32,093 nucleotides of DNA from Oscillospiraceae bacterium (GTDB taxonomy: Bacteria > Bacillota > Clostridia > Oscillospirales > Oscillospiraceae), in NCBI GenBank assembly GCA_015067945.1, contig SVLM01000022.1, positions 1-32,093 of the forward strand, read 5' to 3'. The position numbers and the translations under genes are program-made. The notes under the pieces are model-generated. The model saw nothing but the letters and a program-made list of their open reading frames with translations, had not been told where the DNA came from and searched no databases. Shown here piece by piece: positions 1,221 to 27,600 of the stretch (positions are counted from its first letter, which is position 1; the number at the start of each line of letters is the position of its first letter).

Positions 1221-1249
1221 TTGAAAAAGACACAAATATCTGTTATAAT
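1221..1249 (+). promoter_or_regulatory. Promoter of the restriction-modification operon
   Basis: TTGAAA (1221-1226) and TATAAT (1244-1249) are separated by 17 bases, close to the sigma-A consensus. The first gene begins 46 bases later, after a GAGGTG ribosome-binding site at 1282-1287. No other convincing promoter or terminator is seen until 9737, so this one may drive all seven genes. Confidence 0.7.
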
Positions 1250-1294: not shown

Positions 1295-1486
1295 ATGTCA
1301 ATTTTAATTAATGAGAACTATATCAGTATTGAAGATGCAGCGTTGTTTCTTAACATTAAGCCCGTGACTTTACGCAAATGGATAAAGGACAAAAATGTGC
1401 CCGCTCATAAGATTGGCAAACAGTGGAAGTTCAAGCGCTCTGAACTAGAGGAGTGGGTAAAAAGCGGAAAAAGTGCTATGGATTAA
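1295..1486 (+). CDS. Small excisionase-family helix-turn-helix protein
   Basis: The 63-residue protein is a single winged-helix domain of the MerR/excisionase type. 'ISIEDAALFLNIKPVTLRKW' is the helix-turn-helix, and 'HKIGKQWKFKRSELEEWV' is the typical wing and closing helix. Such proteins are recombination directionality factors or small regulators. As the first gene of a restriction-modification operon, 25 bases ahead of the methyltransferase, it may act as a controller (C-protein-like) delaying restriction, or as an excisionase of the host element. The spacer palindromes at 936-1126 are candidate binding sites. Start chosen from GAGGTG seven bases before ATG. Confidence 0.75.
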   Translation: MSILINENYISIEDAALFLNIKPVTLRKWIKDKNVPAHKIGKQWKFKRSELEEWVKSGKSAMD

Positions 1487-1511: not shown

Positions 1512-2240
1512 ATGTCTGACGTGATACTTTATAATAGCGATTGCATCCAGGCAATGACGGGGATTGCAGATCGTTCGATTGACTTGATACTGACTGATCC
1601 GCCATACAATCTTGGTAACTTTATGATTAGCAGAGATACCAATCTTAAAAAAATGCGTGACAATTTTTTTGGGGCTGCCGGATGGGATAATCTCGAATAT
1701 GATGAGTGGACAACTGCTATGGATGGTTTTTTTGAGCAAGCTTCTCGTGTTATGAAGAAGGGCGGTTCCATGATCGTGTTTATGGCGGCTATCAAAGTTG
1801 AGACAACCATCGCCTTGGCTGAAAAACACGGATTTTACTATAAGACAACTGGAATTTGGCACAAACTAAATCCGATGCCGCGTAATATGCACTTACATTT
1901 TGTGAATTCTACAGAAACCTGGGTTTATTTTACATATAAAACACGCACGGGTACGTTTAACAATAACGGAGCTGTGCTACACGATTTTATTGAAACTGCG
2001 GTAACCCCCGCAAGCGAGCGCAAATTCGGGAAACATCCCACACAAAAGCCGGAAAGCCTTATGAGTCATTTTGTTGAAGTTCTTTCCAACGAGGGTGATT
2101 GGGTTTTAGATCCTTTTATGGGGAGTGGAACATCTGGAGTTGTAGCAAAAAGGACTGGTCGAAAATTTATTGGAATCGAACTGGATAAGGCTTATTTCGA
2201 TATGGCTCAGAAACGCATCGAAGGGAGATTAAATGAATGA
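1512..2240 (+). CDS. Site-specific DNA amino-methyltransferase (probably N6-adenine), beta class
   Basis: This transfers a methyl group from S-adenosylmethionine to an exocyclic amino group of a target base. The catalytic motif DPPY is at residues 29-32 and the cofactor motif DPFMGSG at 200-206, the beta-class order (catalytic motif first). DPPY favours adenine over N4-cytosine, where SPPY is commoner. At 242 residues it is compact, with little room for a separate target domain. The stop codon overlaps the start of the C5 methyltransferase by ATGA, so the two are probably translationally coupled. Two different methyltransferases would suit an asymmetric target whose strands carry different modifications. 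Confidence 0.88.
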   Translation: MSDVILYNSDCIQAMTGIADRSIDLILTDPPYNLGNFMISRDTNLKKMRDNFFGAAGWDNLEYDEWTTAMDGFFEQASRVMKKGGSMIVFMAAIKVETTIALAEKHGFYYKTTGIWHKLNPMPRNMHLHFVNSTETWVYFTYKTRTGTFNNNGAVLHDFIETAVTPASERKFGKHPTQKPESLMSHFVEVLSNEGDWVLDPFMGSGTSGVVAKRTGRKFIGIELDKAYFDMAQKRIEGRLNE

Positions 2241-3304
2241 AACCTACAGTTATTGACCTTTTTGCGGGAGTCGGTGGTTTGTCGCTTGGTTTTGAACAAG
2301 CGGGTTTCCAAGTTGTGCTTGCCAACGAATATGATGAGGAAATCGCCGCCGCATATCGAGAGAATCACCGCTCAACTCAAATGATAGTAGGTGACATCAC
2401 CGCTTTAGATCTCCAAGATGTATTTGGAAGATATACGGGGAAAATTGATGTAATTGTAGGAGGCCCTCCGTGCCAAGGCTTCTCGCAAAAAGGTCAGCGG
2501 AAAACAATCCATGATGAGCGCAATTTTCTGTTTAAGTATTATGTTAAGGTTGTGGAGTTGGTTCGTCCCAGGTATTTTGTAATGGAAAATGTCCCTAATC
2601 TCCTTACCGCGGAGAATGGATATTTTAAGAAAGAAATTGTTGATTTATTTAACGGAATGGGTTACCAACTGAATTCAGGGGTTCTCAATGCTGCAGACTA
2701 CGGAGTGCCACAAAACAGAAGGCGCGCAGTTATTATTGGTAAACGAGACGGCGTTGCCCCCGCTCTGCCAACAAAAACCGAAGAGCGAGTTACCATTTGG
2801 GATGCTATTGGTGATTTAGCATATCTTGAATCTGGCGAGGGTCAAGAAGAGCAACAGTATATAAACTCGCCACAAAGCGATTACGCAAAGTCGTTGAGAG
2901 GGAATATGACAGTACTTCATAACCACGTAGCAACAAAACACTCTAAATTGGCACTGGAAAGACTGGCGTTGATTCCCCCCAATTGTGGAAAGGAAGTTTT
3001 GCCAGAGGAACATCTTACAAAGTCCATTTATAGTGGTACTTGGTCTCGTATGATAGAGGATGACATTTCCGTAACTATTACTACAAGGTTTGACACGCCG
3101 TCATCTGGCCGTTTCACACACCCTTACTTGAATCGAGCCATTACAGTCCGCGAAGCCGCCCGTATTCAGTCTTTTCCTGATAGTTTTGTTTTCACTGGTA
3201 CTAAAAGCTCCCAAATGAAGCAGGTCGGGAATGCAGTTCCCCCTCGGTTGGCAAACGCTATTGCTACAGTGATAAAAAGAGATATGGAGGATAATGAATT
3301 ATGA
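2237..3304 (+). CDS. DNA (cytosine-5-)methyltransferase
   Basis: All key motifs of a C5-cytosine methyltransferase are present in order: motif I DLFAGVGG (7-14), motif IV GGPPCQGFS (75-83) with catalytic Cys79, motif VI ENV (117-119), motif VIII QNRRRAVIIG, and near the C-terminus GNAVPP (motif X). At 355 residues it is a normal single-domain enzyme. The target-recognition region is between motifs VIII and IX and gives no clue to the sequence read. It overlaps both neighbours by ATGA. In LlaJI both methyltransferases are C5 enzymes; here one is replaced by an amino-methyltransferase. Confidence 0.93.
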   Translation: MKPTVIDLFAGVGGLSLGFEQAGFQVVLANEYDEEIAAAYRENHRSTQMIVGDITALDLQDVFGRYTGKIDVIVGGPPCQGFSQKGQRKTIHDERNFLFKYYVKVVELVRPRYFVMENVPNLLTAENGYFKKEIVDLFNGMGYQLNSGVLNAADYGVPQNRRRAVIIGKRDGVAPALPTKTEERVTIWDAIGDLAYLESGEGQEEQQYINSPQSDYAKSLRGNMTVLHNHVATKHSKLALERLALIPPNCGKEVLPEEHLTKSIYSGTWSRMIEDDISVTITTRFDTPSSGRFTHPYLNRAITVREAARIQSFPDSFVFTGTKSSQMKQVGNAVPPRLANAIATVIKRDMEDNEL

Positions 3305-5526
3305 TTAGGCCAGAATCAGCACCTATATATGACCAAATAGATTTAAAGTTGGGGATCAAATCGTCACTACCGGCTGTAAAACCCACATTGGCTCTGTTGT
3401 TTCTTATGTGGAGAGAAATGGGAAAGCCTTCCGAGTTAGAGTATTCGGATGCACAGGGTAATTCAATAGTTTTACGCCAGGATATTGAGGAAACCCTATA
3501 TCACAAATTACAAGAACTTACCGATGGCATAACTTTAGAGCAGTTCCGTGATAAGGTAAATAATAACTTAATGCTGAAAGCGCAACTTGAAGCACTTTTA
3601 GTCGCATTTGAACTTGTATGGAAAGTAGCAAAAATCAGATTTTCTGATGGCCGCTCCAACAGTGCCGAGCGTACTGGAGGTTCTCGCTTCCCTAAAAAAG
3701 TGTGGTTTACGCTTAACATGGACTTGCTTGATGCAGTATGTGGCGATGATGCCGAATACTTAAAAGTGCTTTTTGCCTGGCTTGGCTTTGATTTGAATGT
3801 TGACAGTGAAACAGAAAACACTATAATCCGCTTCCTTACAGCAATTTCTGAAACAGCTTACTATAAGCTTGTCGATGGCGAATCTGATGTGGTTTTCAAC
3901 CTTGAAACTGTTTATAAAGCGGTTCTGTCAAATACTGAGCCAGTTGATGTGTCAGGCGATAAAGAAGCAAAAGGCCCTCTCCGTATTCTGAAATCAGCAT
4001 TGTCAGAGAATTTATTCGCCTTCCTGGCTGCACGGAATAATGGCGTGACCGCAATTAATCCTGACGCGCTACGTGAGTATTCTGCTCGTGTTTCTACGTT
4101 CCATCAATTGAACCCTAAAATGTATCAGTTGGTGGATACTCCTGACGAAGAATTGAATGGTGAAAACAACGAAGAATCTTTCAAAACATGGCTTTCTGGG
4201 ATTACCAAGGCAAATGGTGAACCTTATTCCGAAAACACACGAAATCAATATATTAGTGCTTTGAAAGCCGTAGGGGTAACTTTTGCGGAATCAATCGCTC
4301 CGTTTACATCAATTTTTGAAATTACAGATGTAACCACGTTTGAAAGAGCAGAATCTGCCATAAAATCTGATGCCGGTTATGAAGAGTTTAATCGAAACAG
4401 AGGTAATGGGTCGCTATCTGCTGGTCTTGATTTGTATAAAAGATTTTTAGACGAACGAGAAGACCACTGCACAACTACACACGGTATTCGGTATAGGACT
4501 AATTACTCAAGCACCTTTGCAAGAAATCGCATTTTGTTCGGCGCCCCCGGTACAGGCAAGAGTTATACCCTTAATGGCGATCGCAAGGAACTCTTATATG
4601 GTGATCGTACCGTAGATGAAGACAGTATTGATTGTAGTGATTTTGGTGAATATGAGCGTGTGACTTTCCATCCAGACTACTCCTACGCTAATTTCGTGGG
4701 TACATATAAACCCGTGCCTTGCAAGGATGACCAGGGGCACGACGCTATCACCTATGCCTATGTTCCCGGCCCGTTTATGCGTACCTATGTAAAAGCCCTT
4801 CAGAACAGCAGAACAGATGCACCCAAGCCGTTCCTGCTCGTGATCGAAGAAATCAACCGAGCCAATGTTGCTGCAGTGTTCGGTGATGTGTTCCAGTTGC
4901 TCGACCGTGGGAATGATGAGGTCAGTGAGTATCCGATCCAAGCCTCCGAGGACATCAAAAAGTACCTGGCAGGCGAACTCGGAGGTAATCCCGACGACTA
5001 CTCCGAAATCCGCATCCCGGACAATATGTTCATTTGGGCTACTATGAACAGTGCCGACCAGGGCGTTTTTCCGATGGATACCGCTTTCAAGCGTAGATGG
5101 GACTTTACCTACCTCGGAATCGATGACAGTGAAGCCGGAATCGTTGGTAAGAAGGTCGTACTCGGTCAAGGCGAGTATCGCCGTGTGGTTGAGTGGAACG
5201 CTCTTCGCAAGGCCATTAACAGTGAGTTGCTCACTTATAAGGTGAACGAGGACAAACTGATGGGTCCGTACTTCATTTCGAAGAAGAATCTGCCGGAAGG
5301 TGATACTATCGATCCGGCGGCGTTTACTCGTATTTTCAAGAACAAAGTCCTGATGTACCTGTTTGATGATGCTGCAAAACAAAAGCGTCCGTCTCTGTTT
5401 GCAGGGTGCAAGGATGAAAACAAGAACCTTTATTCTCAAATTTGCAGAGAATTCGACACAAAGGGTGTTTTTATCTTCTGTACCAAAATCAGTGATTGCT
5501 TCTTGCCAGAGGATGATGGAGAATGA
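3301..5526 (+). CDS. McrB-like AAA+ NTPase subunit of an LlaJI-type restriction enzyme
   Basis: The C-terminal half is an AAA+ domain of the McrB group: Walker A GAPGTGKS (414-421), Walker B region FLLVIEEINRAN (511-522), and the sensor region ATMNSADQGVF near 580 followed by TAFKRRWDF. McrB proteins form nucleotide-driven rings that translocate DNA and recruit the nuclease partner. The classical McrB signature MNxxDR reads MNSADQ here, so whether it uses GTP or ATP is open. The N-terminal 400 residues show no familiar motif and probably hold target recognition. Overlap by ATGA with both the methyltransferase before and the nuclease after supports a single complex. R1 of LlaJI is the closest described counterpart. 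Confidence 0.85.
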   Translation: MIRPESAPIYDQIDLKLGIKSSLPAVKPTLALLFLMWREMGKPSELEYSDAQGNSIVLRQDIEETLYHKLQELTDGITLEQFRDKVNNNLMLKAQLEALLVAFELVWKVAKIRFSDGRSNSAERTGGSRFPKKVWFTLNMDLLDAVCGDDAEYLKVLFAWLGFDLNVDSETENTIIRFLTAISETAYYKLVDGESDVVFNLETVYKAVLSNTEPVDVSGDKEAKGPLRILKSALSENLFAFLAARNNGVTAINPDALREYSARVSTFHQLNPKMYQLVDTPDEELNGENNEESFKTWLSGITKANGEPYSENTRNQYISALKAVGVTFAESIAPFTSIFEITDVTTFERAESAIKSDAGYEEFNRNRGNGSLSAGLDLYKRFLDEREDHCTTTHGIRYRTNYSSTFARNRILFGAPGTGKSYTLNGDRKELLYGDRTVDEDSIDCSDFGEYERVTFHPDYSYANFVGTYKPVPCKDDQGHDAITYAYVPGPFMRTYVKALQNSRTDAPKPFLLVIEEINRANVAAVFGDVFQLLDRGNDEVSEYPIQASEDIKKYLAGELGGNPDDYSEIRIPDNMFIWATMNSADQGVFPMDTAFKRRWDFTYLGIDDSEAGIVGKKVVLGQGEYRRVVEWNALRKAINSELLTYKVNEDKLMGPYFISKKNLPEGDTIDPAAFTRIFKNKVLMYLFDDAAKQKRPSLFAGCKDENKNLYSQICREFDTKGVFIFCTKISDCFLPEDDGE

Positions 5527-6995
5527 TTTCAGTATTTTTACGAGAACAAAAACGCTATACCCAGGAAGACCTGGTTAAAGAGTTTCGTTGCTCCGAGGAA
5601 AAGACTGTCCGCATTCTGAAGCGTCTGAAGGAATATGGCGTGCTGAAGGCCGTAAAAGCAAATGACACCCAAAAGGATCTCACCGATCTGTTGGATGAGG
5701 ACATCGAAATTGCCGATGTTGAGGTGGGAGAAAATGAGTACCTGTATGTTTTTACCTTTGTAGGTGTCATCACCATTGAGGGGCGTGTGCTGAAGTGCTA
5801 TCCCAAATATTTGTTTGATGCCACAGCCCCAAAGGCGGAACTGAAACAGGTGTTGAAGGTTCTGGAGAAGTACAATTCCAAGGAACAGATCATTCGTATG
5901 TACAACGACACGAGTGATAGCAGTGCGTTTAATATGTTGGCTGTTATGTTGTTCCTCCTTCAGGATTATTTTGAGTATGGTGCTTATACCAACACGCAGG
6001 ACATCATCGAATCCAATGGAGCCGGTGATATTCTGTGGGATAAAACCATAAACGAAACATTTACACTCCTCAGCAATAACCGCCCGTACTACCCAGAATT
6101 GCTGACCATGAAGCGTGTAAATGACGATTTTGATTTTTTCAAGCGGTTACACGAATGTATCCTCACTCGCTGCACAGAGGAATTAAGAGATGCCGATCTG
6201 TTAGATCTGTTTGATATCATGGGCGTCGACATTTCCGATGAGGCGATCGAGGATTTCGGTGACAAGGAATATGTCCTGGAGCGTATCGTTAAGGAACTCA
6301 ATGTTCAGTTCAATACCCGAAAGCAGCTTTTATTGAAGACCCTGTATGCCTATATAGCCAATAGCAGTGCGTTGGACGATTTAGACTGCTTTAGTATGTT
6401 CGGCACAAACAGTTTCAATCTGGTGTGGGAAAAAGTCTGTTCAGAAGTGATGGACAACCAGTTGCAAAAGCCAATCGGAGGACTGCGCCTGCCTGTGCCG
6501 CTTGCAGAGCAATACCGAAATATGCGGCACAAGAAACTCATTGATTTGATCGACAAGCCACAATGGTCTGGAACCGCACCAAGCGGAGAAACATACACAA
6601 AGCAGGCGGAGGATACACTGATTCCCGACCTTATTTCTATTGTCAACATCAACGGTGAGTGTCAGTTTATCATTTTCGACGCCAAATATTACAATCTTCA
6701 GTTGGAACACAATAAAAAACTGCGTGGTCAACCAGGCATTGAATCCATTACCAAGCAGTATCTGTACCAACTGGCATATCAGCCGTTTGTGGAAGCACAC
6801 CAGATTAATGTCGTCCGTAATTGCTTCCTTATGCCTACGGCGTCGGCAGACATTGTCCCAATCGGTACGGCTGCCCTCGCTATGCTGAGTAATTTGGGGT
6901 TGCAGGACATCCAAGTTAGATTGTTGCCTGCGGAACTGATGTACCGGCACTACATTGAAAACACAAAACTGGATATCAAATCCCTAAATTTGTAA
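5523..6995 (+). CDS. LlaJI-type restriction endonuclease subunit (PD-(D/E)XK nuclease)
   Basis: The 490-residue protein begins with a winged-helix-like segment (about 10-45, 'TQEDLVKEFRCSEEKTVRI'). It ends with a nuclease core: PD at 368-369 and DAK at 386-388 in FIIFDAKYY, the PD-(D/E)XK pattern. The overall layout and its place after an McrB-like gene match the LlaJI R2 family, the nuclease partner equivalent to McrC. It should cut DNA when the preceding AAA+ subunit meets an unmethylated site, in contrast to McrBC itself, which needs methylated DNA. Start ATG overlaps the stop of the preceding gene. Family assignment comes from context and motifs, not a search. Confidence 0.8.
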   Translation: MISVFLREQKRYTQEDLVKEFRCSEEKTVRILKRLKEYGVLKAVKANDTQKDLTDLLDEDIEIADVEVGENEYLYVFTFVGVITIEGRVLKCYPKYLFDATAPKAELKQVLKVLEKYNSKEQIIRMYNDTSDSSAFNMLAVMLFLLQDYFEYGAYTNTQDIIESNGAGDILWDKTINETFTLLSNNRPYYPELLTMKRVNDDFDFFKRLHECILTRCTEELRDADLLDLFDIMGVDISDEAIEDFGDKEYVLERIVKELNVQFNTRKQLLLKTLYAYIANSSALDDLDCFSMFGTNSFNLVWEKVCSEVMDNQLQKPIGGLRLPVPLAEQYRNMRHKKLIDLIDKPQWSGTAPSGETYTKQAEDTLIPDLISIVNINGECQFIIFDAKYYNLQLEHNKKLRGQPGIESITKQYLYQLAYQPFVEAHQINVVRNCFLMPTASADIVPIGTAALAMLSNLGLQDIQVRLLPAELMYRHYIENTKLDIKSLNL

Positions 6996-7011: not shown

Positions 7012-7812
7012 ATGGCCCCCGTCGCTTCCCCTAAACCGGCAAAAAAGAAGGACAATACCGATGGCCGTGTCTTTGCCGAAAAGCGTGTCTTACGCATTCC
7101 AAAGGAATTAGTGCTTTCGTACTATAATCGCCATTCCGATTTCCGCAGAGCCGTCGATAGTGGAAAGTACATATACATCGATGGTCTCTTTGTCCTTCGT
7201 CCTATTGCAACTATCCTATTGGAGCATCACATCGATGTTCACGCATTTTTTCGCTCCAAAAAACTCTTTGCAAACAAAAATGGCTTGACGGCTTTCTGCT
7301 TGTGCGAAGAACACCTCTTCGTTGAGCGGAAGCCCAAGCCCGATGAGTTATATCATTCCGCAAGAGAATATAAGGGCAGGCGGATAGCTCACGCTGAAAA
7401 AATCGCTTCAATCGATACCATTTCTAAAGAAATGTTCCTGGGTTTTGTGTCTGGTGGCGGTCAAGAACCTCCATTAGATTTTAGCGGGATGCTAACCTTC
7501 TTCATGAAACAAAAAGATGTTACTGAAGAGGAACTCGCTGAATTGACTGGCATTTCCGATCGAACAATTCGTCGATATAAGAATGATGAAGGTGAACGCC
7601 CTACGCTCGAAAATGTCGTTGCAATAGGCATCGCTTTACATTTGTTCCCTCACCAAATTATGGGGTTACTTGGTGCGGCGGGATACCAGTTGCGGAGGAC
7701 ACCCAAAGAACGTGCATATCAGTATCTCATTGATGCTGCATACAACAATACAGTTTACGAATGCAATCTATTCTTGAAAAAGTCAGGAATGCAACCGTTA
7801 ACAAATCTATAA
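7012..7812 (+). CDS. HTH protein sharing a module with the downstream peptidase; function unknown
   Basis: This 266-residue protein has no peptidase motif. Residues about 35-60 include SGKYIYIDGLFVL, resembling KGSYIYVDSHMCL in the middle of the next gene's product. From about 165 on it has an XRE-like helix-turn-helix ('EELAELTGISDRTIRRYKND'), then a helical tail containing HQIMGLLGAAGYQLR and ending NLFLKKSGMQPL. The same HTH-plus-tail order closes the next protein. It thus looks like a paralogue of the downstream gene without the zinc peptidase half. Start ATG follows AAGGAGGT at a good distance, 16 bases after the nuclease gene. It may be a regulator, a cleavage substrate or a partner of the peptidase; the sequence does not decide. 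Confidence 0.75.
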   Translation: MAPVASPKPAKKKDNTDGRVFAEKRVLRIPKELVLSYYNRHSDFRRAVDSGKYIYIDGLFVLRPIATILLEHHIDVHAFFRSKKLFANKNGLTAFCLCEEHLFVERKPKPDELYHSAREYKGRRIAHAEKIASIDTISKEMFLGFVSGGGQEPPLDFSGMLTFFMKQKDVTEEELAELTGISDRTIRRYKNDEGERPTLENVVAIGIALHLFPHQIMGLLGAAGYQLRRTPKERAYQYLIDAAYNNTVYECNLFLKKSGMQPLTNL

Positions 7813-7827
7813 GAAGGAGGGATTTCT

Positions 7828-9720
7828 GTGGCTGATCGTTCGTTTAAGGAATACATTGGCAGCAGATTTTATGATCAGTTTTTCACTGTATTAAAATCAT
7901 ATGTCATCCAACATCGCCATAATATCGAATTGAATTCACGTACGGTCAGTAGCCCCGATTACGCAGAACTCTCCGATTTCACTATTAAGTCTGTGGGGAT
8001 TGATGACCGCGAGGGAATGGGTATCGCTTTCGACGTTATCGTGGAGGCGGAGGTTTATGTTAAAGAACATCATCGACATCGTGATGTTGATGATGATACC
8101 TGTTTCCCGTGGTTCATTCTCTCCTGCACAGCGGATCTATCCGAGAATATGGATGACCTCCGTATTCATCGGGTCGAGACGTACAATCAGAAAAACAAGC
8201 AAAACAAACCTTTGTCAGATTCCCTTGTTCCAATCAGCTACAAAATCGATCTCGATAAGATAGCTACGGAATTTTTAAGGAAACATTACCCGGAAGCCCT
8301 CGCCACTCCTATGCCCGTTGACCCTATGGTTCTTGCCGACAGGCTCGGCCTTTCGGTTGTTACCCAGGAACTGACAGAGGATTTTTCCGTATTTGGGCAG
8401 ATTTTCTTCCAGGACTGTGCAGCAGAGGTGGTCAATTCGCAAACAGGCAAAAAGGAAACTGTCCTTTTTCCTGCAAAGACTATCGTTGTTGACCCCAAGG
8501 CATTCCTTTTGAGGAACTTGGGATCGGTTAACAACACCATCGTACATGAATGTGTTCATTGGGACCGCCACCGAAAAGCGTTTGAATTAGAGCGCTTGTA
8601 CAACCGTGATGCAACACAGATAAAGTGCCTGGTTGTTGGAGGCTCAAAAGGGTCATCTGACCGAACTGCTGCCGATTGGATGGAGTGGCAGGCTAATGCT
8701 TTGGCGCCACGCATTCAAATGCCTGTGGGTTCCTTCAAAACAAAGGCAGCCGAATATATCCGCAACTTCCAGAGAGAAATGAACGCGGCTCACATCGTAG
8801 ATGTTATGGAAGCGGTTATTGATGCTCTTGCTACCTTTTTCGTTGTTTCGCGCCACGCTGCGAAAATGCGTATGGTGGATGTAGGCTATGAGGAAGCCAT
8901 CGGCGCATTTACCTACATCGATGGCCACTATGTTAAACCCCACGCATTCAAAAAAGGCAGTTTGCGGAAAGATCAAACATACTGCATCAGCGCAGAAGAC
9001 GCCCAGATTATTGCCTTCAGCGATATGCGGCTTTTCTCTCAAGCACAGAAAGGTTCATACATATATGTTGATTCGCATATGTGTTTGAACGATCCGAAGT
9101 ATGTCACCAGAGATGAAAACAATGCTGTGCAAATGACCGATTATGGTCGTCTGCACGTAGATGAGTGTTGCCTGGTATTCTCACTGAAGGTAAAGGCGAC
9201 CAATAAATATGGCGAGGAATTTTACAAAGAGTGCGTTCTCTTTAGAGACGTAGACTCTGGCATTGTATTCCAGACCACCTTTTCAAAAGAGGTCAGTGAC
9301 GATGTCATGGGGAAAGCGGACGCCATTCTCGCACGAGAAACGGAAATCCAGAGAGTTCTCCAGGAACTTCCTGCACAGTTTGGCGCTGCACTTATTTACC
9401 TCATGGAGTGGGTCGATATTTCCGAAGAAGCCTTGGCGGAGAAGGCTCTTGTTTCTACAAAACTGGTTCAACGTCTGCGTAACAATCCGCAATACCCGAA
9501 GAATGTGGACTGTGTGGTCGCCATTTGCATCGGTATGAATTTGCCGCCGGAATTGAGCAAGGCGCTCATTGACAGATCCGGCTTCACCTTGCGATTGGCT
9601 CAAAATGAAGCACACTTGATATACAATTTCTTCCTTAACCATTTGTATATGGGGTCCATCCACGATTGCAATGATATGTTGGTATCAAAGAATTTGCCAG
9701 TGATGACTGGTACAGAATGA
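7828..9720 (+). CDS. ImmA/IrrE-type zinc metallopeptidase fused to a C-terminal HTH module
   Basis: The 630-residue protein carries an HEXXH zinc site, HECVH at 240-244, and a likely third ligand Glu286 in MEWQANALAP, the arrangement of ImmA/IrrE peptidases that cleave HTH repressors. Residues 1-150 are unfamiliar. The middle (about 340-500) includes KGSYIYVDSHMCL, and the C-terminus has an HTH-like region ('EEALAEKALVSTKLVQRLRN') plus a tail with DCNDMLVSKNLP. The last two parts are shared with the preceding protein. The start is GTG, set by AAGGAGGG seven bases upstream. It is the last gene before a terminator. A role in sensing stress or infection and relieving repression is plausible but inferred. 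Confidence 0.82.
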   Translation: MADRSFKEYIGSRFYDQFFTVLKSYVIQHRHNIELNSRTVSSPDYAELSDFTIKSVGIDDREGMGIAFDVIVEAEVYVKEHHRHRDVDDDTCFPWFILSCTADLSENMDDLRIHRVETYNQKNKQNKPLSDSLVPISYKIDLDKIATEFLRKHYPEALATPMPVDPMVLADRLGLSVVTQELTEDFSVFGQIFFQDCAAEVVNSQTGKKETVLFPAKTIVVDPKAFLLRNLGSVNNTIVHECVHWDRHRKAFELERLYNRDATQIKCLVVGGSKGSSDRTAADWMEWQANALAPRIQMPVGSFKTKAAEYIRNFQREMNAAHIVDVMEAVIDALATFFVVSRHAAKMRMVDVGYEEAIGAFTYIDGHYVKPHAFKKGSLRKDQTYCISAEDAQIIAFSDMRLFSQAQKGSYIYVDSHMCLNDPKYVTRDENNAVQMTDYGRLHVDECCLVFSLKVKATNKYGEEFYKECVLFRDVDSGIVFQTTFSKEVSDDVMGKADAILARETEIQRVLQELPAQFGAALIYLMEWVDISEEALAEKALVSTKLVQRLRNNPQYPKNVDCVVAICIGMNLPPELSKALIDRSGFTLRLAQNEAHLIYNFFLNHLYMGSIHDCNDMLVSKNLPVMTGTE

Positions 9721-9778: not shown

Positions 9779-10093
9779 TTATTCATTATCGTGGCTCATT
9801 GCTTTGAGCATCTGTAATGCAGCTTGTTTCTGCGATGGTTTCAAACAGATCCAGGCGTCAAAAACTTCCTTCATATCGGGAGTCAGTTCCACCATATCGG
9901 TATCCGCGAAGAACTGCGACATAGTGATGCCGAAGCCTTTACATATCGTCTCGAGGGTTGCTACGGAAGGAACTGTATTTCTTCGGAAAATATTGCCGAT
10001 AGTGGACTGTGCTAACCCACACTCTTTTGAAAGTTTGTACTCCGTCCATCCGCGTTCCCGCAATAACTGCTGGAGACGAGCGTGCGTATCCAT
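9779..10093 (-). CDS. XRE-family helix-turn-helix repressor
   Basis: The first 60 residues form a Cro/C1-type HTH: 'LRERGWTEYKLSKECGLAQS' followed by TIGNIFRRNTVPSVATLETI. The remaining 40 residues are a helical tail (MKEVFDAWICLKPSQKQAAL). Such 104-residue proteins are usual repressors in mobile elements and could be substrates of ImmA/IrrE peptidases like the neighbouring one. It is convergent with the operon and divergent from the SLOG gene, with which it shares a 126-base promoter region. Start ATG follows AAAGGTGGTG. Confidence 0.85.
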   Translation of the reverse strand: MDTHARLQQLLRERGWTEYKLSKECGLAQSTIGNIFRRNTVPSVATLETICKGFGITMSQFFADTDMVELTPDMKEVFDAWICLKPSQKQAALQMLKAMSHDNE

Positions 10094-10219: not shown

Positions 10220-10708
10220 ATGACCGAAGCTGAGAAGCGAATGAACCGAGTATGCTTTACGGGACACCGCCCGGAAAAGCTTACACGATCCGAATGGCTT
10301 ATAAAGAGGGCTTTGAAAAAAGAAATCCGCCAGGCAATTGCTGACGGAAAGAATGTCTTTATATCGGGTATGGCACGAGGGGTTGATATTTGGGCAGCAG
10401 AGATTGTCTTGATACTGCGTGATGCCGGACAGCCCATAAAACTTATGTGTGCTTGTCCCTACGACGGCTTCGAGCAAGGATGGAGACAAGAGTGGCAGGA
10501 ACAATACCGTGCGATTCTGTCTGCGTCTGATTTTGTGAAATATGTCTGCCCGGCTTACAGCCGATCCTGTTTCCAGATCCGCAACGAGTGGATGGTTGAT
10601 CACGCATCCAGGGTTATCGCTGTTTTCAATGGAGAGAAAAGTGGAACGAAGAATACCATAGATTACGCTGCAAAGGTGGATGTCCCGGTTGTGTGCATTG
10701 AGGGATAA
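10220..10708 (+). CDS. SLOG-family (DUF1273/YpsA-like) nucleotide-binding protein
   Basis: The 162-residue protein is one Rossmann-like domain. It begins CFTGHRPEKL, the GHR signature of this family. Then come ISGMARGVDIWAAE, a glycine-rich nucleotide-binding turn, CACPYDGFEQGW, and a terminal DYAAKVDVPVVCI. SLOG proteins are thought to bind nucleotides or nucleotide-derived signals and are frequent in mobile elements and some defence systems. No effector domain is attached. The divergent XRE gene is the likely regulator. Exact ligand and role are unknown. Confidence 0.82.
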   Translation: MTEAEKRMNRVCFTGHRPEKLTRSEWLIKRALKKEIRQAIADGKNVFISGMARGVDIWAAEIVLILRDAGQPIKLMCACPYDGFEQGWRQEWQEQYRAILSASDFVKYVCPAYSRSCFQIRNEWMVDHASRVIAVFNGEKSGTKNTIDYAAKVDVPVVCIEG

Positions 10709-10965: not shown

Positions 10966-11041
10966 TGGTCCGAGTGGGGAGATTCGAACTCCCGGCGTCT
11001 TGAACCCAAATCAAGTGCCCTACCAACTGGGCCACACCCGG
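10966..11041 (-). tRNA. tRNA-Pro (anticodon UGG)
   Basis: The 76-base gene folds fully. Acceptor CCGGGTG pairs with CACTCGG, followed by A and an encoded CCA. The D-stem is GCCC/GGGC around AGTTGGTA, the anticodon stem CTTGA/TCAAG encloses TTTGGGT with anticodon TGG, and the T-arm is GGGAG-TTCGAAT-CTCCC. It lies where the AT-rich island meets the GC-richer chromosome, and two truncated copies follow upstream, so it is a likely integration target. Its anticodon stem differs from that of the two truncated copies. Confidence 0.93.
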
Positions 11042-17416: not shown

Positions 17417-19123
17417 TTAGTTTCTCTTCTTCAGAACCACCAGAGCGGTGCCGGAAACAGCCATCAGAGCGACTACGATGCCGAAGATATCGCCGGTATC
17501 GGGAGCGCCGGGCTCGACGGGCTCAGTGGGAGCGGGTTCGGTGGACTGAGGCTCGGTGGGAGTGGGCTCAGTGGGAGTGGGCTCCTCGGGAGCGGTCTCG
17601 AAGGTGAAGCCTTCCAGAGCAGCAGTCTTGCCGCAGTCGCCACGCATGCTCAGCGCGATCTTACGGGCATCATTGCTGCCACCGTCGTTGGGGATGATGA
17701 TCAGGGTTTCGCCGTCCTGCAGCTCAGCCCATGCGGTGGTTGCGTAGGTGTTAGCATTGAAGTGCGCGGAAGCAGCCTTGCCCTCAGCGGTCCAGAAGCC
17801 GACGTTTGCGCCGTCATAAACTCTGACCAGAGTGCCATACTGATCCAGAACCAGGGCCACGCCGTAGCCGTTGGTCTCGAAGGTGCCGGCATAGTTCTTG
17901 TCGAACACGATCATGGTGTAGCCAGAAGTGGTCTCCTTGGTGACTTCGGTGTTGTACAGCCACTTGCCGCCTTCAGCGGTGATGACCTTGTCACCGATGG
18001 ACAGAGTCTTGGACTCTGCGGGCTCTTCGATGACGGGCTCGGACAGAGTGAAGGTGATGGAGATGCTCTGTGTAGCAACGAAGGTAGTCAGATCGATGGG
18101 AGCTTTCTTGGAGGCGGTAACACCGGCCAGCATGTTGCTCAGCTCGATGACGTAGTTGTTGGTGGAGCCTTCCACAGTGCTGTGGTAGACATAGATGGAG
18201 TTCTCAGGAGCGTCGGCATAGTCATAGGGATTGACATAAGCCACGTTCTGGTTCACAGCGATTTCGGTGCCGTCCAGAGAAACATGGACATCGGACAGAA
18301 TCATATCCTTCAGAGCGTCATAAGCATCCACGATTTCCACGTAGAACAGGTAAGCGCTGACAGCGGTGGAACCGGGATTCAGGGTGTAGTTGATGGTATA
18401 GGTGCCAGCACCGGGAACAACGCCCTTGGCATCGGTCTCGATGTAAGCGCCGCCCATGGCAGCAACACCGTCATAGCCGTTCTGGGTCCAGCAGGAGTAG
18501 GTGGTGTCGCAGAACTGCAGGTAAGCGGCATAGCCAGCGGGAGCAACAGGGGGCTCAACAGGAGTCTCGGCAGCAGCCTCGGTGACTTCCATCTTGAACA
18601 GGTAGTTGGAGCCGTCAGGAGTGCCCAGGTAGTAAGTACCGGCAGCTTCCAGAGTCAGCTCGGAGATGCACAGAGCATTCTTTTCCAGGGTATCGTTGGT
18701 TCTGGTGACTTCCTCGCCAGCCTCATTCAGGATTGCGAACTGACGGTTGTCGTCGCCACCCTCAACCCACCACAGCTTAATGGTGGCAGCACCGGAGGTG
18801 GTGAACTTAACAGCGGGCAGGATGACGCCTGCGTCGTTAGCCTTGGTCTTGTGCTGGAAGTTCAGACGCTGGGTGGCCTGATAGCCATCGTCAAAGGTCT
18901 TCTTGCTGGAGTCAATCTTGGTCTTTTCGCCCACGATAACGGTGAAATAGTCCTTGACGACGATTTCCTTACCGTTATTGGCGGCATCGGCAGCCATAGC
19001 TTCCAGATCGGTGGACACATCCAGAACATGGACATTGTCTTCAGCAGCAAAAGCGGCGGGCAGCATCAGCAGCACCATGACCAGTGCCAGCAGGGATGCC
19101 AGAATCTTGCGGGTCATTTTCAT
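17417..19123 (-). CDS. Wall-anchored surface protein with a module shared with the PL9 lyase
   Basis: The 568-residue protein has a signal peptide (MKMTRKILASLLALVMVLLM, cleaved near AFA-AED). Residues about 33-185 form a module containing LWWVEGGDDNRQF, also found twice in the PL9 pectate lyase of this locus. Two further beta-rich regions (about 195-375 and 380-510, the latter with MIVFDKNYAGTFETNGYG) are unfamiliar. A Thr/Glu/Pro stalk leads to PDTGD (541-545), a hydrophobic helix and KKRN, a sortase sorting signal. No catalytic motif is seen, so it probably binds polysaccharide, likely pectin, or displays the shared module. It is downstream of the methylesterase gene but has its own promoter. 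Confidence 0.85.
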   Translation of the reverse strand: MKMTRKILASLLALVMVLLMLPAAFAAEDNVHVLDVSTDLEAMAADAANNGKEIVVKDYFTVIVGEKTKIDSSKKTFDDGYQATQRLNFQHKTKANDAGVILPAVKFTTSGAATIKLWWVEGGDDNRQFAILNEAGEEVTRTNDTLEKNALCISELTLEAAGTYYLGTPDGSNYLFKMEVTEAAAETPVEPPVAPAGYAAYLQFCDTTYSCWTQNGYDGVAAMGGAYIETDAKGVVPGAGTYTINYTLNPGSTAVSAYLFYVEIVDAYDALKDMILSDVHVSLDGTEIAVNQNVAYVNPYDYADAPENSIYVYHSTVEGSTNNYVIELSNMLAGVTASKKAPIDLTTFVATQSISITFTLSEPVIEEPAESKTLSIGDKVITAEGGKWLYNTEVTKETTSGYTMIVFDKNYAGTFETNGYGVALVLDQYGTLVRVYDGANVGFWTAEGKAASAHFNANTYATTAWAELQDGETLIIIPNDGGSNDARKIALSMRGDCGKTAALEGFTFETAPEEPTPTEPTPTEPQSTEPAPTEPVEPGAPDTGDIFGIVVALMAVSGTALVVLKKRN

Positions 19124-19187
19124 TGTATTTTCCTCCTATAATAATTTACCTTGAGACATGAACAATGTTCATCGTTTCAATATAGCC

Positions 19188-19216
19188 ATTGTAACGGAAT
19201 TGTGAATATTTGTCAA
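19188..19216 (-). promoter_or_regulatory. Promoter of the surface-protein gene
   Basis: On the minus strand TTGACA (19216-19211) and TACAAT (19193-19188) are 17 bases apart. The spacer ends TTCCGT, giving TTCCGTTA across its junction with the -10 box, as in the methylesterase promoter at 24436-24464. The two genes may therefore share a regulator. Confidence 0.75.
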
Positions 19217-19304
19217 TAGAACTTTTGGATAAAATTAACAATGTGCATGCAGAATATGGATGCGATTTTACATAAACTGAAATTTGCACACCGAATATAA
19301 AGAG

Positions 19305-19330
19305 CCGGCCGCACCAGGTGGTGCGGCCGG
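19305..19330 (-). terminator. Terminator of the pectin methylesterase gene
   Basis: CCGGCCGCACC and GGTGCGGCCGG form an 11-bp, very GC-rich stem just after the methylesterase stop codon. The following minus-strand sequence CTCTTTATATT is only a moderate U-tract. Confidence 0.65.
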
Positions 19331-19347
19331 ACAGGGTAATGAGAATA

Positions 19348-22300
19348 TCAGAACATTTCGCGCTTGCGCAGCAGAACCACCAGAGCGCTGGCGGACAGGA
19401 ACATGGCAGCGAAAACCAGGAAGGTCAAGTCGCCGGTCTTGTCAGCATCGGCGGGAGTCTCGATGACATCAATGGTCATCAGACGGAAGCCGCGGTTGTA
19501 ATCGCTCTCGGGGGAGACGATGCGGTAGGTGCCGGGCTTCAGACCCTCGACCACCAATTCGGTGGAGTCTGTGGAGGACACGTCAGCGCTGAGAACCACT
19601 TCGCCGGTTGCCGCATTGATAATGGCAACTGCGGAGGTGTTGGAGCCGCCGGTGGAGGAGACCACGATGGTCACTTTGCCCTCGCCGCTCAGGGTGAACT
19701 CGATGGCACCGGTGCCGTTCTTACCGATCTCAATGGCGTACACGCCGCCCTTGCTATCCTTGTAACGCTGGGTGACAGCGCCGATGACGGTGAAGAAACC
19801 GTCAGCGAAGGTGGTGCCCTCGGGGATGGCAGCCTTATCTTCGGTGGAGCCGGTGTTTACATCGGTCAGAGAGTTGAAGTGGTGCTCCACAGGCTCGGCG
19901 GGAACGTCGGGATCATCGGGGATGATGGGATCGTCGGGCTCTTCCTTGGGAGAATTGTCGATCTTCTCGGTGGGGATGACGATGGTCAGATCCTTGCCCT
20001 CGAAGGCATTCCAATCGCCCAGGAAAGCCTCGATGGTGATGGGGGAGCCGTCGGCCAGGAATTCGGTTTCGAAGACGGTGGACCAGCCTGCACGGTTGCC
20101 GATATTGTCGACGCCCAGCGCGTACTCATAGGTGCCGTACTCGCCGCACAGAGCGGATTCGCCGCTGAGGGTGCTCAGCCAGCCTTCGGGACGGATCAGG
20201 GATGCGCTGATGTTGTACCAGTAAGCATCGGTTGCGTCAATGATGGTGTTGTAGAACACAGCCTCGCCGGTGTTGGAGGCCCAGGGACGGCCGAAGTAGC
20301 CGGGCTTGGAGGTGTACTTGGAAGCGGTGTCCACACCGGGGGTGGTGGAGGTGATGCGACAGTTGTACATCAGGAAGCCGCGGCCGGAGGACTGCTGGGC
20401 AGCGGTGATGTAACCGGCATCGTTGTTGTTCTCGCTGGTGTTGAACACCAGGTCGCACTTGGCGAATACTGCGGTCATGCCGCCATAAATATAGTCAGTG
20501 CCGCCCAGGATGGCGCAGTCATAGAAGGCAGCGGTGGTGCCAGTGCCGCCGTACAGAGTATCCTGACGGCCAATGAACTTGCAGTTCTCAAAGTAAATTT
20601 CCTTGCAGTTATTGGCAATGGCCAGGGCGCCTGCGCGCTCGACGTATGCCTTATCCTGCACCAGAGTGGAACCGACTTCCATATCGGCGCGGGCAACGGA
20701 GCCTTCCTTGGCACCGTTCTGCTTGACCAGAATATCGTTGGCAGCAGCCTCGGAAATATACTGGTTGAAGGAGTTTTCAAAGATGATGCCCTCAGCCTGG
20801 AAACCGCTGGCGTAGATGACTACGGTGGAGTTCCAGTAGCTGCCGCTGGTGGTGCCGGCGCCGGGGTTGGTGAAGGAAGGATAGCCGTTTTCCTTATTGA
20901 CCTGCAGGATATCGGCGTCGAACTTGCAATCGGAACCCATGGAGTAGTAGGTGTAGCCATGGCCATAGTACCAGGTGATGCGGACAGCGTTTTCTTCAAT
21001 ATCCACACCGCTGTTGGTCAGACCGATGGAGGGATTCTCACTGGCGTTCTTCAAGGTGACGTTGGGGATATCGATGACCAGCATCTCTTCGTAGTTGCCG
21101 GGCTGGATCAAAATGGTGACACGCTCGCCACCGGGGCGGGCCATTGCCTTGATGGCATTCAGCGCGGCATTGATGGTGGTGTAATCGCAACCCTCGGCAC
21201 CAACGGTGACGGTATCGTGGTATTCTACAGGTTCGATCACTTCAATCTTGGTGATGTAGCTCTGGCCCAGAACCTTCAGTTCCACAAAGCCGGCTTCACC
21301 GGTGTAGATGAAGGTAAAGGTGTCGATCTGGCTGGTGGAGCCGGTCTTCTGGTCCACGGAAGCCTCGTCCTCAGAAACGAAGTAGAAGGAGTACTGGTAG
21401 CAGGCACTGACCTTAATCTGACAGCCGCCCTTGACGGGGATGGAAATGGTGCCGTCCTTGGCAAGCAGGTAGGTCTTGTTCTTGACTGCGTTGGTCCAGG
21501 TCAGGCCCTGGAAGTTGCCGCCTTCGCCGGTAAAGTCGGGGTTGGAGAAATCCCAAACGGTGATATCATCGGTGAAGCGGATGGTCTTGGTGACAGCGCC
21601 GCCCTCGACCTTGACATTGGAGGTCAGTTTCTGGACAAATGCGCCGGAATTGGTAACTTTAACAGCGTAGACACCGTCACGCAGGGCGATGTTCTCGGTG
21701 CCGATGAAGGTGTAGACATAGCCTTCTTCGTTCAGGTTGGTGAAAGTGAAGGTGGCGCCGGCCAGATCGGCAGCGGTGGCACCCTCGGGGGCAATGGTGA
21801 TGGCGTAGGTGGGCTTGGCTTCCAGTACGATGTCTGCAGCAGTGTCAGCATCATAGCACAGGGTTGCCGCGCTTGTCAGGAAATAGTCGTTGACACCGCC
21901 GATGGTCAGCGTATAGGTCATACCCTTTTCCAGAATGGCGGTGTAGGTATTGCCGGAGATGGAGATCTGGGGAATATAGATGGCGTCGGCAGAGAAGTTC
22001 AAGCTGATCTTTGCCAAAGCATCCTCGCTGATACCCACAATATTACCGGTGACGGTCACCAGATCCACGGGCTCAATGGTAATATCAGCAGCTGTGTTGC
22101 CGCAGCCCTTTTCGAAGGTCAGCTGGCGCTCGCTGGCGATGACATAGCCATTGGCGTTCAGCAGAGCCAGGTTATAGCTGTAGCCATCCAGCAGGCGGAT
22201 GGAGTAAGCACCGTCGCGGACAGTGGTTTCAAACTTGGCGCCGCTGAGAGTGTTGGTGAACTCGATGGTATAGTCGCTCAGGGTCTCGGGGGCTTCCACT

Positions 22301-24369: not shown

Positions 24370-24435
24370 GGTATCATCCTCCTGTTTTTACCGGGCTTGC
24401 TTGCACAAACCTTTGGTTAATTTTTCCACACTCCT

Positions 24436-24464
24436 ATCATAACGGAAAAGTGGATATGCGTCAA
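24436..24464 (-). promoter_or_regulatory. Promoter of the pectin methylesterase gene
   Basis: On the minus strand TTGACG (24464-24459) and TATGAT (24441-24436) are 17 bases apart. The spacer pattern ATATCCAC..TTCCGT resembles ATATTCAC..TTCCGT in the surface-protein promoter. Confidence 0.8.
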
Positions 24465-24538
24465 CAATCCGAAAAGAAAAAAATCCGGATTGCACATATA
24501 TTGGACCGCTGAGGTTATAACAAAATAGACAAAACGAG

Positions 24539-24567
24539 TTGAAAAAAAGATGATTTTGTGCTATAAC
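24539..24567 (+). promoter_or_regulatory. Promoter of the PL9 pectate lyase gene
   Basis: TTGAAA (24539-24544) and TATAAC (24562-24567) are separated by 17 bases. The ATG lies 65 bases downstream after AAGGAGGAA. It is divergent from the methylesterase promoter, about 75 bases away, and its spacer shows no TTCCGTTA block. Confidence 0.7.
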
Positions 24568-24631
24568 ATATACAAATAAGCTGCGGTCTGCGGAAGAAAG
24601 ACCGCATCTGAAATACAAGGAGGAATGACCT

Positions 24632-27600
24632 ATGACGAAACGTATCCTTTCCGCAGTGCTGGTTTTGGTTATGCTGGCGGCAATGCTGCCTGCGTTCCCG
24701 TTCCAGGCCCGTGCTGAAGAAAATACTTATGTGCTGGATGCTACGGCGGATTTGGCTCCCATGAGTGCCGGAACCAAGCAGGACGGCGATTTTGATACCG
24801 TCGGTACAGATGGTTACTTCACGCTGATCTATGCGGCAAAAACCAAGATCGACAGTTCCAACAAGACCTTCGATGATGGCTATACTGCTTCTCAGCGTAT
24901 CAATTTCCAGTCCAAGACCAATGTGGAAAAGGGCATGGTACCTGCTATCAGCTTCACCACCTCTGCCGCTGCCACTATCAAGCTTTGGTGGGTCGAGGGC
25001 GGCGATGACAACCGGCAGTTTGCTATCTACAACAGCACCGGTGAGATCATTGCCAAGACCGAAGAGACTTTGGAGAAAAATGCGCTATGTATTTCTGAGC
25101 TCAGTGTGGATGCGGCAGGCACCTACTTCCTGGGTGTACCTGACGGCTCCAACTATCTGTTTAAGATGGAAGTGACCGAACAGGCGGCAGAGCCTGTCAT
25201 CATCACGAACACCCTGGACGCCACCGCCGATCTGGCACCTATGAGCGCCGGAACCAAGCAGGACGGCGATTTTGACACCGTGGGCACCAACGGCTACTTT
25301 ACGCTGATTTATGCTGCCAAGACCAAGATTGACAGCTCCAACAAGACGTTTGAAGATGGCTACACCGCTTCCCAGCGTATCAATTTCCAGTCCAAGACCA
25401 ATGTGGAAAAGGGTATGGTGCCTGCCATCAGCTTCACCACCACCGGCCCTGCCACTGTGAAGTTCTGGTGGGTCGAGGGCGGCGATGACAATCGCCAGTT
25501 CGCACTGTATAACAGCACAGGTGAGATCGTTGCCAAGACCAATGAGACCCTGGAAAAGAATGCACTGTGCATTTCTGAGCTTACTGTGGATGCAGCCGGT
25601 ACCTACTTCCTGGGCGTTCCTGACGGCTCCAACTATCTGTTCAAGCTGGAAGTGACGGAAGTTTCCGGCGGCCCTGTTGTGGAAACCCGTAAGGATTGGT
25701 CTGAGGTGGCTGCCCCGGTTATCACCGCCGCGACGGATGACGGAGAGGGCAGCATGCACGTGACCGTGAATGCCGTTGTGGGCAAGGATGGCGGCGATGA
25801 GCTGTTTGTCACTATGTATGACGCACAGGGCAACGAGATCGCGACCCGTCGTTCCATTGCGGAAAAGGGTGAGCATGCGCTGCTGTTTGAGCCTGAAAAT
25901 TCCGGTGAATATACCTTCAAAGCGGTGCTGCTGCGAGAAGAGCAGCCGCCCAAGGAGTCTGATGAATCTCTGACCGCTTATTTCAAGCTGGTGCTTACCG
26001 ATCCAATTCTGATCAGCGCTACCAGCAAGGGCGGTGGCACTGTGGAACTGGTTTGGGTTGGTGCCAAGGAGGCTACTGCTTATGAGATTTATGCCGGTGA
26101 GACTCTGCTGGGCACCACTTCCGGCACGATTTATATGGCTGAGGGTCTGACCGTGGGACAGGAATACGCTTTCACCATCGTCGCGGTTCGCGGCGAGGAC
26201 CGTACCACCTCTGCGCCTGTCAGCACCAAGGTGACCCAGGAAGCACAGCAGACCTGGGGCTTTACCTACTATGGTCCTTCTACAAACGCGGCCGGCAATG
26301 GCTATGTTGGCTCTGTGAATGAGGATGGTTATGTTACCGTCTATTCTGAGGGTGGCAAGGGTAAGATTCAGCCCAAGAGCCTGGATGGCCTGGCATTCTA
26401 CTACACAGCCGTCCCCGCTTCTATGAACTTCACCCTGCGCGCCAAGGTCACCGTAGACAGTTGGGAATTGTCCAATGGTCAGGAAGGCTTTGGCTTGATG
26501 GCGGCCGACCGCTTGGGCACCAGCGGCGATTCCGCCGGCATTTGGAACAATGCCTATATGGCGCTGGCCTCCAAGATTGAGTATAAGTACGAGGGCGGAG
26601 AGGACAGCCTCCACGTTTACGACACCAGTTACGACGGCGGCACCAAGATCACCATGAAGATGGGTCTGGGCGCACTGTCCAAGACCGGCATCACTAAGGA
26701 AAATCTGCCTGCTTTCGAGGCGGGCGACACCACCGTCATTAACCGGGATCTGCTGAGCCTGACAATGCCTCTGGAATGGGCTGCTGCCGAATGGGGCAAG
26801 GAAGCCGGCACTTATAATGTAATCGGCAACTACACCCAGGCCCCCGGCGGCGATATCGAGCTGGAAATGCTGACCAGCTTCATTCTGGAAATTCAGAAGA
26901 ACAACACCGGTTATTTCATTACTTACTACGATGATGCCGGCAATATCCTCTGCCGCCAGAAGTATTACGATACAGAAGCTTTGAGCCAGCTGGACAACGA
27001 GTTTGTGTATGCAGGTTTCTTTGCCTCCCGTAATGCCCGGGCTACATTCTCTGATGTGTATTTTGCCACTATCGATCCCAAGGACGATGCACCCGCGGAG
27101 GAAAAGCCCGTTACCAAGATCCAACCTTCCATTACGTTCGCTACGGATACAGTCTGCAACAGCCTGAACTATCAGATGATGATTGATGCCAATGTCAGCG
27201 GTACCGCTAAGGTCACGGTGGCAGGCAATACTGTGCTGGAGAATGTGCAGATTATGGCCAACCAGCGCGCTTATCTGGATATTCCGCTGGCTACTTACGG
27301 CAAGAACCGCGTTCAGGTCATCTTCACACCGGATCCTGATCAGGATCTGGGCCCTGACACGGTGCTCAGCTCCACCAAGGATGTGACCGAAACTCTGGAG
27401 ATCATTGCTAACAAGGGCAACTATCACCAGAAAGTGATCTATGCTTCTCCCACCGGCCTGCCCACCGGCAACGGTACCAAGGAACAGCCTTATGATATTT
27501 ACACCGCAGTGGATAACGCGGTGGCAGGTCAGACCATTGTACTGCTGGAAGGCACATATAAAATGCTTTCCTCCCTGCGTATTAAGCGTGGATTTGACGG

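Follow-up and report, generated by a model that had tools for sequence, protein, structure and literature searches.

A mobile restriction system that enters an unmethylated host has to get through its first minutes there, and how it does so has long been asked: for type I systems the ClpXP protease of the host is one known answer, while the elements' own solutions, and the other types of restriction-modification (R-M), are less clear. The question is raised by a locus of an Oscillospiraceae bacterium (GenBank assembly GCA_015067945.1, contig SVLM01000022.1; the whole stretch analysed, of 32,093 nucleotides, is called the window below), in which one operon of seven genes on the + strand carries R-M genes followed by a pair encoding the proteins p266 and p630 (Table 1). 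The initial annotation, made from the letters of the window, had placed this pair at the end of the restriction operon, had described the two proteins as paralogues sharing a middle segment and a C-terminal helix-turn-helix (HTH) with a helical tail, and had seen a peptidase motif, HECVH, only in the second; position, strand, paralogy and the absence of the motif from p266 were all borne out. The favoured reading, somewhat short of probable, is that p630 is an IrrE-like, DNA-gated protease that travels on mobile elements and restrains the element's own nuclease, with p266 as its adaptor or substrate.

The p630 peptidase and the module shared with p266

On sequence and modelled structure, the prediction for p630 is a zinc protease of the IrrE-like kind. 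Residues H240, E241, H244 and E286, that is, the HExxH motif and the downstream glutamate typical of M78 peptidases, show no variation across the 84 homologues aligned, and the predicted model matches the IrrE/PprI fold from the start of the peptidase (residue 135-136) to residue 421-487. The N-terminal domain has weak NTF2-like Foldseek matches; with p630, Foldseek gave nothing at E ≤0.001 in the PDB and, among viral models, only two matches at that threshold, short or partial. p630 thus resembles PprI/IrrE, the Deinococcus protease of DdrO, in its catalytic motif and in the fold match of its model, and differs from it in an extra N-terminal domain (residues 1-135), in an extra XRE HTH with tail (516-620), in the lack of a recognised DdrO beside it and in its only Pfam match, M78 (PF06114), which stays below the curated cut-off (13 versus 22 bits).

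The relationship between p266 and p630 extends over a whole module. Profile-profile comparison with hhalign aligned residues 26-265 of p266 with residues 384-627 of p630 (probability 99.9%, E 2.1e-34), placing SGKYIYIDG of p266 and KGSYIYVDS of p630 in register. BLASTP recovered the HTH and tail only (28% identity over 116 residues, E 7e-15), other segments being at chance level, and it overlooked the middle segment that the profile comparison found; the shared segments, whose loss on structure-based alignment the initial annotation had named as a result that would count against it, persist in the profile comparison. The AlphaFold2 models of the two proteins (mean predicted local distance difference test score 79 for p266 and 87 for p630) agree in the order of their elements, helix-helix-strand-strand, predicted at 31-40/42-49/53-56/59-62 in p266 and at 389-398/400-407/411-414/417-420 in p630. 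The HTH of p266 lies toward its C-terminus, at residues 155-224 of 266.

p266 starts 16 bases 3' of the gene of the LlaJI-family nuclease subunit, R2, and is separated from p630 by 15 bases; since the joints within the operon are either overlaps or gaps of 15-25 bases, and ribosome-site-like sequences precede both p266 and p630, the pair is probably co-read with the restriction genes. R2, p266 and p630 are under purifying selection: the ratio of nonsynonymous to synonymous rates (dN/dS), computable for 22 of 24 gene comparisons, lies at 0.02-0.09 (with dS >1 in several), and the three are therefore real genes. Pseudogenes or a chance pairing are ruled out by these ratios together with the profile match and the locus counts given below.

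Linkage of p630 to restriction genes

A protein search with p266 returned 28 proteins, p266 included, and one with p630 returned 1,932 at E ≤0.001, most of the best 120 of these 1,932 covering at least 97% of p630. Relatives of p630, which matches PHROG 4031 (function unknown) over nearly its full length, occur on phages, plasmids and chromosomes, mostly on phages; their loci, labelled L with a number, were grouped at 90% identity (110 groups). One relative, of 628 residues, lies in the Streptococcus suis phage phi-SC181 (L008) between resistance cargo and phage replication genes, and no restriction gene was recognised adjoining it.

When sides with less than 4 kb were dropped from 109 non-redundant loci, leaving 75 upstream and 91 downstream sides, restriction or methylase genes were found within 6 kb upstream of p630 at 62 of the 75 loci, and downstream at 2 of 91. 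The neighbourhood survey proposed in the initial annotation therefore finds the p630 family tracking restriction genes, and chance co-occurrence in one strain fails as an explanation; the tie to restriction is both stronger and broader than could be seen from the window, where the nuclease genes form a LlaJI-type pair. Around ordinary M78 genes taken from 29 p630-bearing genomes, restriction genes stood on the left at 4/37 and on the right at 2/28, in a control that is redundant, is counted by left and right rather than upstream and downstream, and includes 4 central open reading frames (ORFs) of 37 without a plain HExxH. In a survey of the class, p630 matches were found in 17 of 391 genomes; without the window and three peptidase-only genomes, 13 remain, of which 11 have restriction genes at the locus (7 of 9 among loci new to the set; L275, L281, L283 and L286 were already in it, and the p630 of L289, at a contig edge, was missed by the ORF caller).

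Because the R-M profiles had been built from p630 neighbourhoods, the neighbours were checked independently with Pfam, the two nearest per locus being taken (L026 dropped) and proteins of at least 100 residues scanned, a cut below which small HTH genes fall. The 92 nearest upstream neighbours scanned, of 141, included C5 methylases (8), AAA_5 (7), LlaJI, HsdR N-terminal and N6/N4 methylase (5 each), HsdM-type methylase and McrBC (4 each), Eco57I and HsdS (3 each), and Eco29kI, NgoFVII and BpuSI (1 each). Among 68 neighbours of ordinary M78 genes, of 99, HTH_3 led, and no restriction family appeared among the 25 families listed of 41. The restriction partners of p630 include LlaJI, type I, McrBC, Eco29kI, NgoFVII and GmrSD.

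The main alternative is that p266, or the small HTH protein encoded at the head of the operon, represses the operon and that p630 cleaves this repressor upon DNA damage or infection, giving more restriction. Such a transcriptional switch, akin to CapP/CapH or IrrE/DdrO, is unlikely yet carries appreciable weight. It is kept alive by small HTH genes in 39 of the 82 p630 loci searched, and in 16 of the 17 where the restriction genes are divergent (the count leaves out the window, which also has one). In CapP/CapH, of the cyclic oligonucleotide-based antiphage signalling system (CBASS), the protease adjoins an HTH repressor with an N-terminal HTH and a C-terminal multimerisation domain. The window offers a likeness to it, a peptidase beside an HTH protein near a defence system and weak PADLOC matches (capP 3.5e-5, capH 0.005), and departs from it in having no CBASS genes among the seven of the operon, which are R-M genes and the pair. 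Furthermore, p266 stands at the operon end, has its HTH C-terminal-ward rather than in the N-terminal position of CapH, and is a paralogue of the peptidase's own C-terminal half; for CapH and DdrO, the titles of the solved structures place the HTH chain in an N-terminal domain. With the size cut stated above, HTH_3 was found in 2/92 neighbours of p630 versus 22/68 of ordinary M78 genes, which also argues against a switch.

The orientation of the locus bears on another idea, that p630 shields the incoming element from the restriction of the host, in the manner of plasmid ArdC. Carriage by phages and plasmids agrees with this, as does the architecture of ArdC, described as a DNA-binding domain with a metalloprotease domain resembling IrrE (PMC7213743). 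However, p630 lies downstream of the element's own restriction genes and in the same orientation at 46 of 83 loci, its presence in phages with DUF2800 goes with restriction genes (see below), and the effect of ArdC is described as independent of its protease activity (PMC7213743); such a role is very improbable.

Phage early genes (DUF2800, the Enc34 single-stranded DNA (ssDNA)-binding protein or PolA) lie 3' of p630 in 62 of the 92 groups with 6 kb downstream, with restriction genes on the other side, and a sigma-like protein, DUF2800, the Enc34 protein and PolA recur after p630 in many loci. ImmA controls lysogeny by cleavage of a prophage repressor, and p630 might do likewise, the restriction genes being mere cargo of the same insertion spot. 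Of all the explanations considered, this one is given the least credence: in the flanks of the operon scanned with Pfam (9779-10093 and 10220-10708) no phage replication gene was recognised beside the window copy, and a survey starting from DUF2800 found p630 in none of 13 phages without recognised restriction genes. That survey covered 24 of 80 phage contigs, those with 7 kb upstream and DUF2800 on the + strand: 4 had p630, all 4 with restriction genes, 7 had restriction genes without p630 and 13 had neither, so that p630 occurs in 4 of the 11 phages that have recognised restriction genes and in none of the 13 that lack them (one-sided Fisher, worked by hand, 330/10626 = 0.031, a value that overweights the evidence because several rows are near relatives and all 4 p630 contigs were already in the locus set). 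The comparison rejects a phage core gene as the whole story.

The slot before p630 is variable. It holds a GmrSD protein in L087 and an Abi_C protein in L070; in L056 (8678-9886), L127, L128, L131 and L290 (7624-8835) the p630 relative is immediately preceded by a protein of ~403 residues, itself preceded by a gene for 241-244 residues, and the ~403-residue protein of L056 is an HTH plus M78 protease. Genes for 209-500 residues intervene between the nuclease or methylase genes and p630 in L045, L063, L066, L061 and L064; that of L061 is Eco29kI, that of L045 has a SEC-C motif, and those of L064 and L066 have no Pfam match. In L277 (3814-7070) an LlaJI operon of the window type is followed, by eye, by an OLD-like ATPase and a reverse transcriptase-like protein, not by p266 and p630.

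Accessory module copies and a candidate alleviation mechanism

The module of p266 also occurs fused to a nuclease subunit. In Sporosarcina luteola (L059) and in a metagenome-assembled genome of Clostridia (L068), HsdR genes of 1,322 and 1,306 codons lie directly before p630 and their last ~255 residues are the module. A search with that tail among proteins of 0.55-1.75x the HsdR length gave three tailed HsdR proteins and nothing else, and adjacency to p630 is seen in the two of these three with a locus in the set. A viral scan with p266 gave three p266 genes (L171, L092, L172), each adjoining a p630. That the slot before p630 might hide further proteins with the module was discarded as a possibility when a sensitive module search gave full copies only at known loci, the other matches being a partial copy three genes 3' of p630 in L080, fragments of broken p630 and, for the remainder, the HTH only. 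As to the pair, which the initial annotation had taken as a unit, the paralogy is real, but the constant element is p630, which has another complete copy of the module beside it in only 8 of 110 groups, that of the window included; the copy, free as p266 or fused to HsdR, is an accessory.

A module tree of 91 rows has two supported groups of interest, one made up of 14 p266-like rows and the other of the three HsdR tails, separate from their own p630; the bootstrap of this tree is unsettled, several branches are long, and the module rows of L093, L172 and L080 fall elsewhere or are unplaced. A recent copying of the neighbouring p630 module into p266 or HsdR was discarded on this grouping. The last ~115 residues of p630 (HTH and tail) also match the ends of proteins of ~340 residues, frequent in this order, among them the macrodomain-HTH-tail proteins of Clostridia, which unlike p630 have no peptidase and, by profile, no middle segment; two of them form a long separate branch in the tree. 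By eye, L222 and L274 (among L220-L234 and L274) are macrodomain proteins, and that of the present genome (L274, G000:C27:24351-24785) has a vWA-like protein adjoining.

The sequence comparisons make p266 a partner of long standing; it has two or more deeply separated alleles, and in the pairs measured it evolves under purifying selection. The two alleles are 34% identical, although R2 and p630 of the operons that carry them share 89% identity or more. Relative to phage NatCom_11393, the window shows identities of 97, 90, 90, 80-83 and 94% in the five genes preceding p266 and of 90% in p630, versus 34% in p266, the drop in DNA identity being bounded by the borders of p266 (in 60-base steps); in Intestinibacillus (L011), R2, p266 and p630 are kept at 92, 85 and 89% and the methylases are different. 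A swap of nuclease or methylase as the cause of the p266 swap is contradicted by two pairs, L004 and L012 (R2 97%, p630 95%, p266 32%) and L004 and L005 (methylases different, p266 98%). The identity of R1, at 73-98%, follows no pattern matching p266, and no correlate of the swap was found.

Two deep alleles in near-identical operons could also mean a race with phage inhibitors, as expected if p630 were a toxic protease silenced by the intact restriction complex through the module and freed for killing or arrest when a phage disables restriction. PrrC is freed in this guard-like way. The coupling to restriction would be the same, a module common to nuclease and protease suits a holding complex, the Abi_C, GmrSD and HTH-M78 proteins of single loci stand in the slot adjoining p630, and a prophage metallopeptidase that kills infected cells, Lit, has been described (PMC3506569). 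Nevertheless, no toxic target is known or predicted and the relatives PprI and CapP are regulatory, which makes a guard function distinctly unlikely.

The module sits between nuclease and protease, either as a separate protein or as a nuclease tail, and chiefly for this reason p266 is taken to bind the nuclease physically rather than to be a repressor, for which fusion to an HsdR of ~1,050 residues would be odd. Restriction alleviation is preferred because p630 follows unrelated restriction types, mostly on elements that enter unmethylated hosts, because it resembles a protease gated by ssDNA, and because it shares the module with a nuclease subunit. By analogy with PprI, p630 may be gated by ssDNA or broken DNA; the module would act as a homotypic docking device recruiting p630 to the nuclease complex, free p266 serving LlaJI in the way that the fused tail would serve HsdR, and p630 would then cut either p266 or whichever nuclease subunit p266 is bound to. 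Upon entry of the element into a cell with a chromosome not yet methylated, or upon damage to self DNA, the nuclease would be kept inactive for as long as methylation lags behind. Substrate and trigger are the least secure points of this scheme.

Several observations weigh against alleviation. No cleavage, binding or ssDNA result was found for any member of the p630 family. No upstream restriction gene was recognised at 13 of 75 loci and at 2 of 13 in the class sample, and p630 is dispensable, because it is absent near 5 of the 6 other LlaJI genes of the class sample in the stretch fetched (one of the six matches being slightly below the Pfam cut-off) and from 7 of 11 restriction-bearing DUF2800 phages. 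The other HsdR proteins beside p630 (~1,005-1,094 residues) have no module tail, and one protease docking on structurally unrelated nucleases is hard to picture without an adaptor, given how few groups have a second module copy. The swap of p266 alleles with little change in R2 is unlike the expectation for tight docking on R2, and the small HTH genes counted above fit a transcriptional switch better.

Layout of the window and relation to known systems

The features of the operon are collected in Table 1; ORF calls were mechanical throughout. The promoter-like site is conserved in the phage copies L004 and L005, and its score is weak by itself, a shuffled region yielding more such sites than the real one. 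The HTH_17 protein is 97% identical in the same two copies. Further 5' of the operon, the inverted repeat CGGACAC...GTGTCC occurs twice and the repeat TGTCCG...CGGACA once (937-953, 1059-1074, 1109-1126), partly retained in L004 and L005; they might be an operator, a terminator or the end of an element. On the 3' side, a tRNA-Pro (10966-11041) is followed by two partial tRNA-like copies to 11460 (by eye), possibly an integration scar, and three large ORFs at 17417-29029 (568, 1673 and 1465 residues) have, by eye, a secreted and repeat-rich look.

Table 1. Coordinates of the restriction operon, the p266/p630 pair and nearby features in the window
Feature	Position	Strand	Basis or remark
Promoter-like site TTGAAA-17-TATAAT, extended -10	1221..1249	+	5' of operon; 11/12 consensus matches
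HTH_17 protein, 63 aa, operon gene 1, possible controller	1295..1486	+	Pfam HTH_17 3.6e-16
N6/N4 DNA methyltransferase	1512..2240	+	Pfam N6_N4_Mtase 1.1e-42
C5 cytosine DNA methyltransferase	2237..3304	+	Pfam DNA_methylase 8e-80
R1, McrB-like AAA, predicted specificity/motor subunit of LlaJI-type nuclease	3301..5526	+	Pfam AAA_5 8.5e-7; PADLOC REase_II PDLC03448 1.6e-114
R2, LlaJI-family restriction endonuclease subunit	5523..6995	+	Pfam RE_LlaJI 2e-52; PADLOC REase_II PDLC03447 5e-183
p266, free-standing module (alpha/beta segment, XRE HTH, helical tail), without peptidase, 266 aa, ATG start	7012..7812	+	
p630, N-terminal domain, predicted IrrE-like zinc peptidase and p266-type module, 630 aa, GTG start	7828..9720	+	
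HECVH zinc-binding motif, p630 residues 240-244	8545..8559	+	Third ligand predicted E286, 8683-8685
p630 module, residues 384-627	8977..9708	+	Common to p266 and three HsdR tails
XRE repressor near operon	9779-10093		

Among the closest described systems is LlaJI of the Lactococcus plasmid pNP40, which, like the window operon, joins two methylases, a McrB-like AAA protein and the LlaJI nuclease subunit in one operon (PMC1459862). LlaJI has two C5 methylases, whereas the window operon has one C5 and one N6/N4 enzyme; since two 5-methylcytosine methylases are not present, the window operon is an LlaJI-like variant and not LlaJI itself. Moreover, the operon described has four genes, and the part of the report consulted names no such protease or HTH protein (PMC1459862). 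In the Lactococcus plasmid pUCCL629C, a truncated p630 relative of 413 residues follows the LlaJI gene.

ClpXP-dependent alleviation consists in proteolysis of the HsdR subunit of EcoKI, which spares unmodified self DNA (PMC4231737, PMC12707154). The outcome proposed for p630 is the same, and p630 would be the element's own counterpart of this host function; ClpXP, however, is an AAA+ protease of the host, whereas p630 would be an element-encoded zinc peptidase of a single chain, with an effect that is proposed. A wider claim, somewhat more doubtful than the one made for the window, is that there may be a class of restriction-alleviation proteases of mobile elements, in which one IrrE-like family would serve many unrelated R-M systems and find its clients by means of an HTH module that is portable between proteins and present in the protease, in the free adaptor p266 or at the end of HsdR; the alleles of the adaptor would be exchangeable.

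Regulation by a protease and an HTH protein is known from IrrE/DdrO and CapP/CapH; neither a coupling to restriction at large nor a module that protease, free partner and HsdR have in common turned up in the literature searched. A search of the open literature on LlaJI, on IrrE/ImmA with restriction, on CapP/CapH and on restriction alleviation gave no title or abstract start about the p630 family. With a protease that travels with many kinds of restriction, and a module that it has in common with one class of nuclease, the question of how an element spares its unmethylated host becomes directly testable and, if the alleviation reading is true, restriction would join the systems under the control of IrrE-like proteases.

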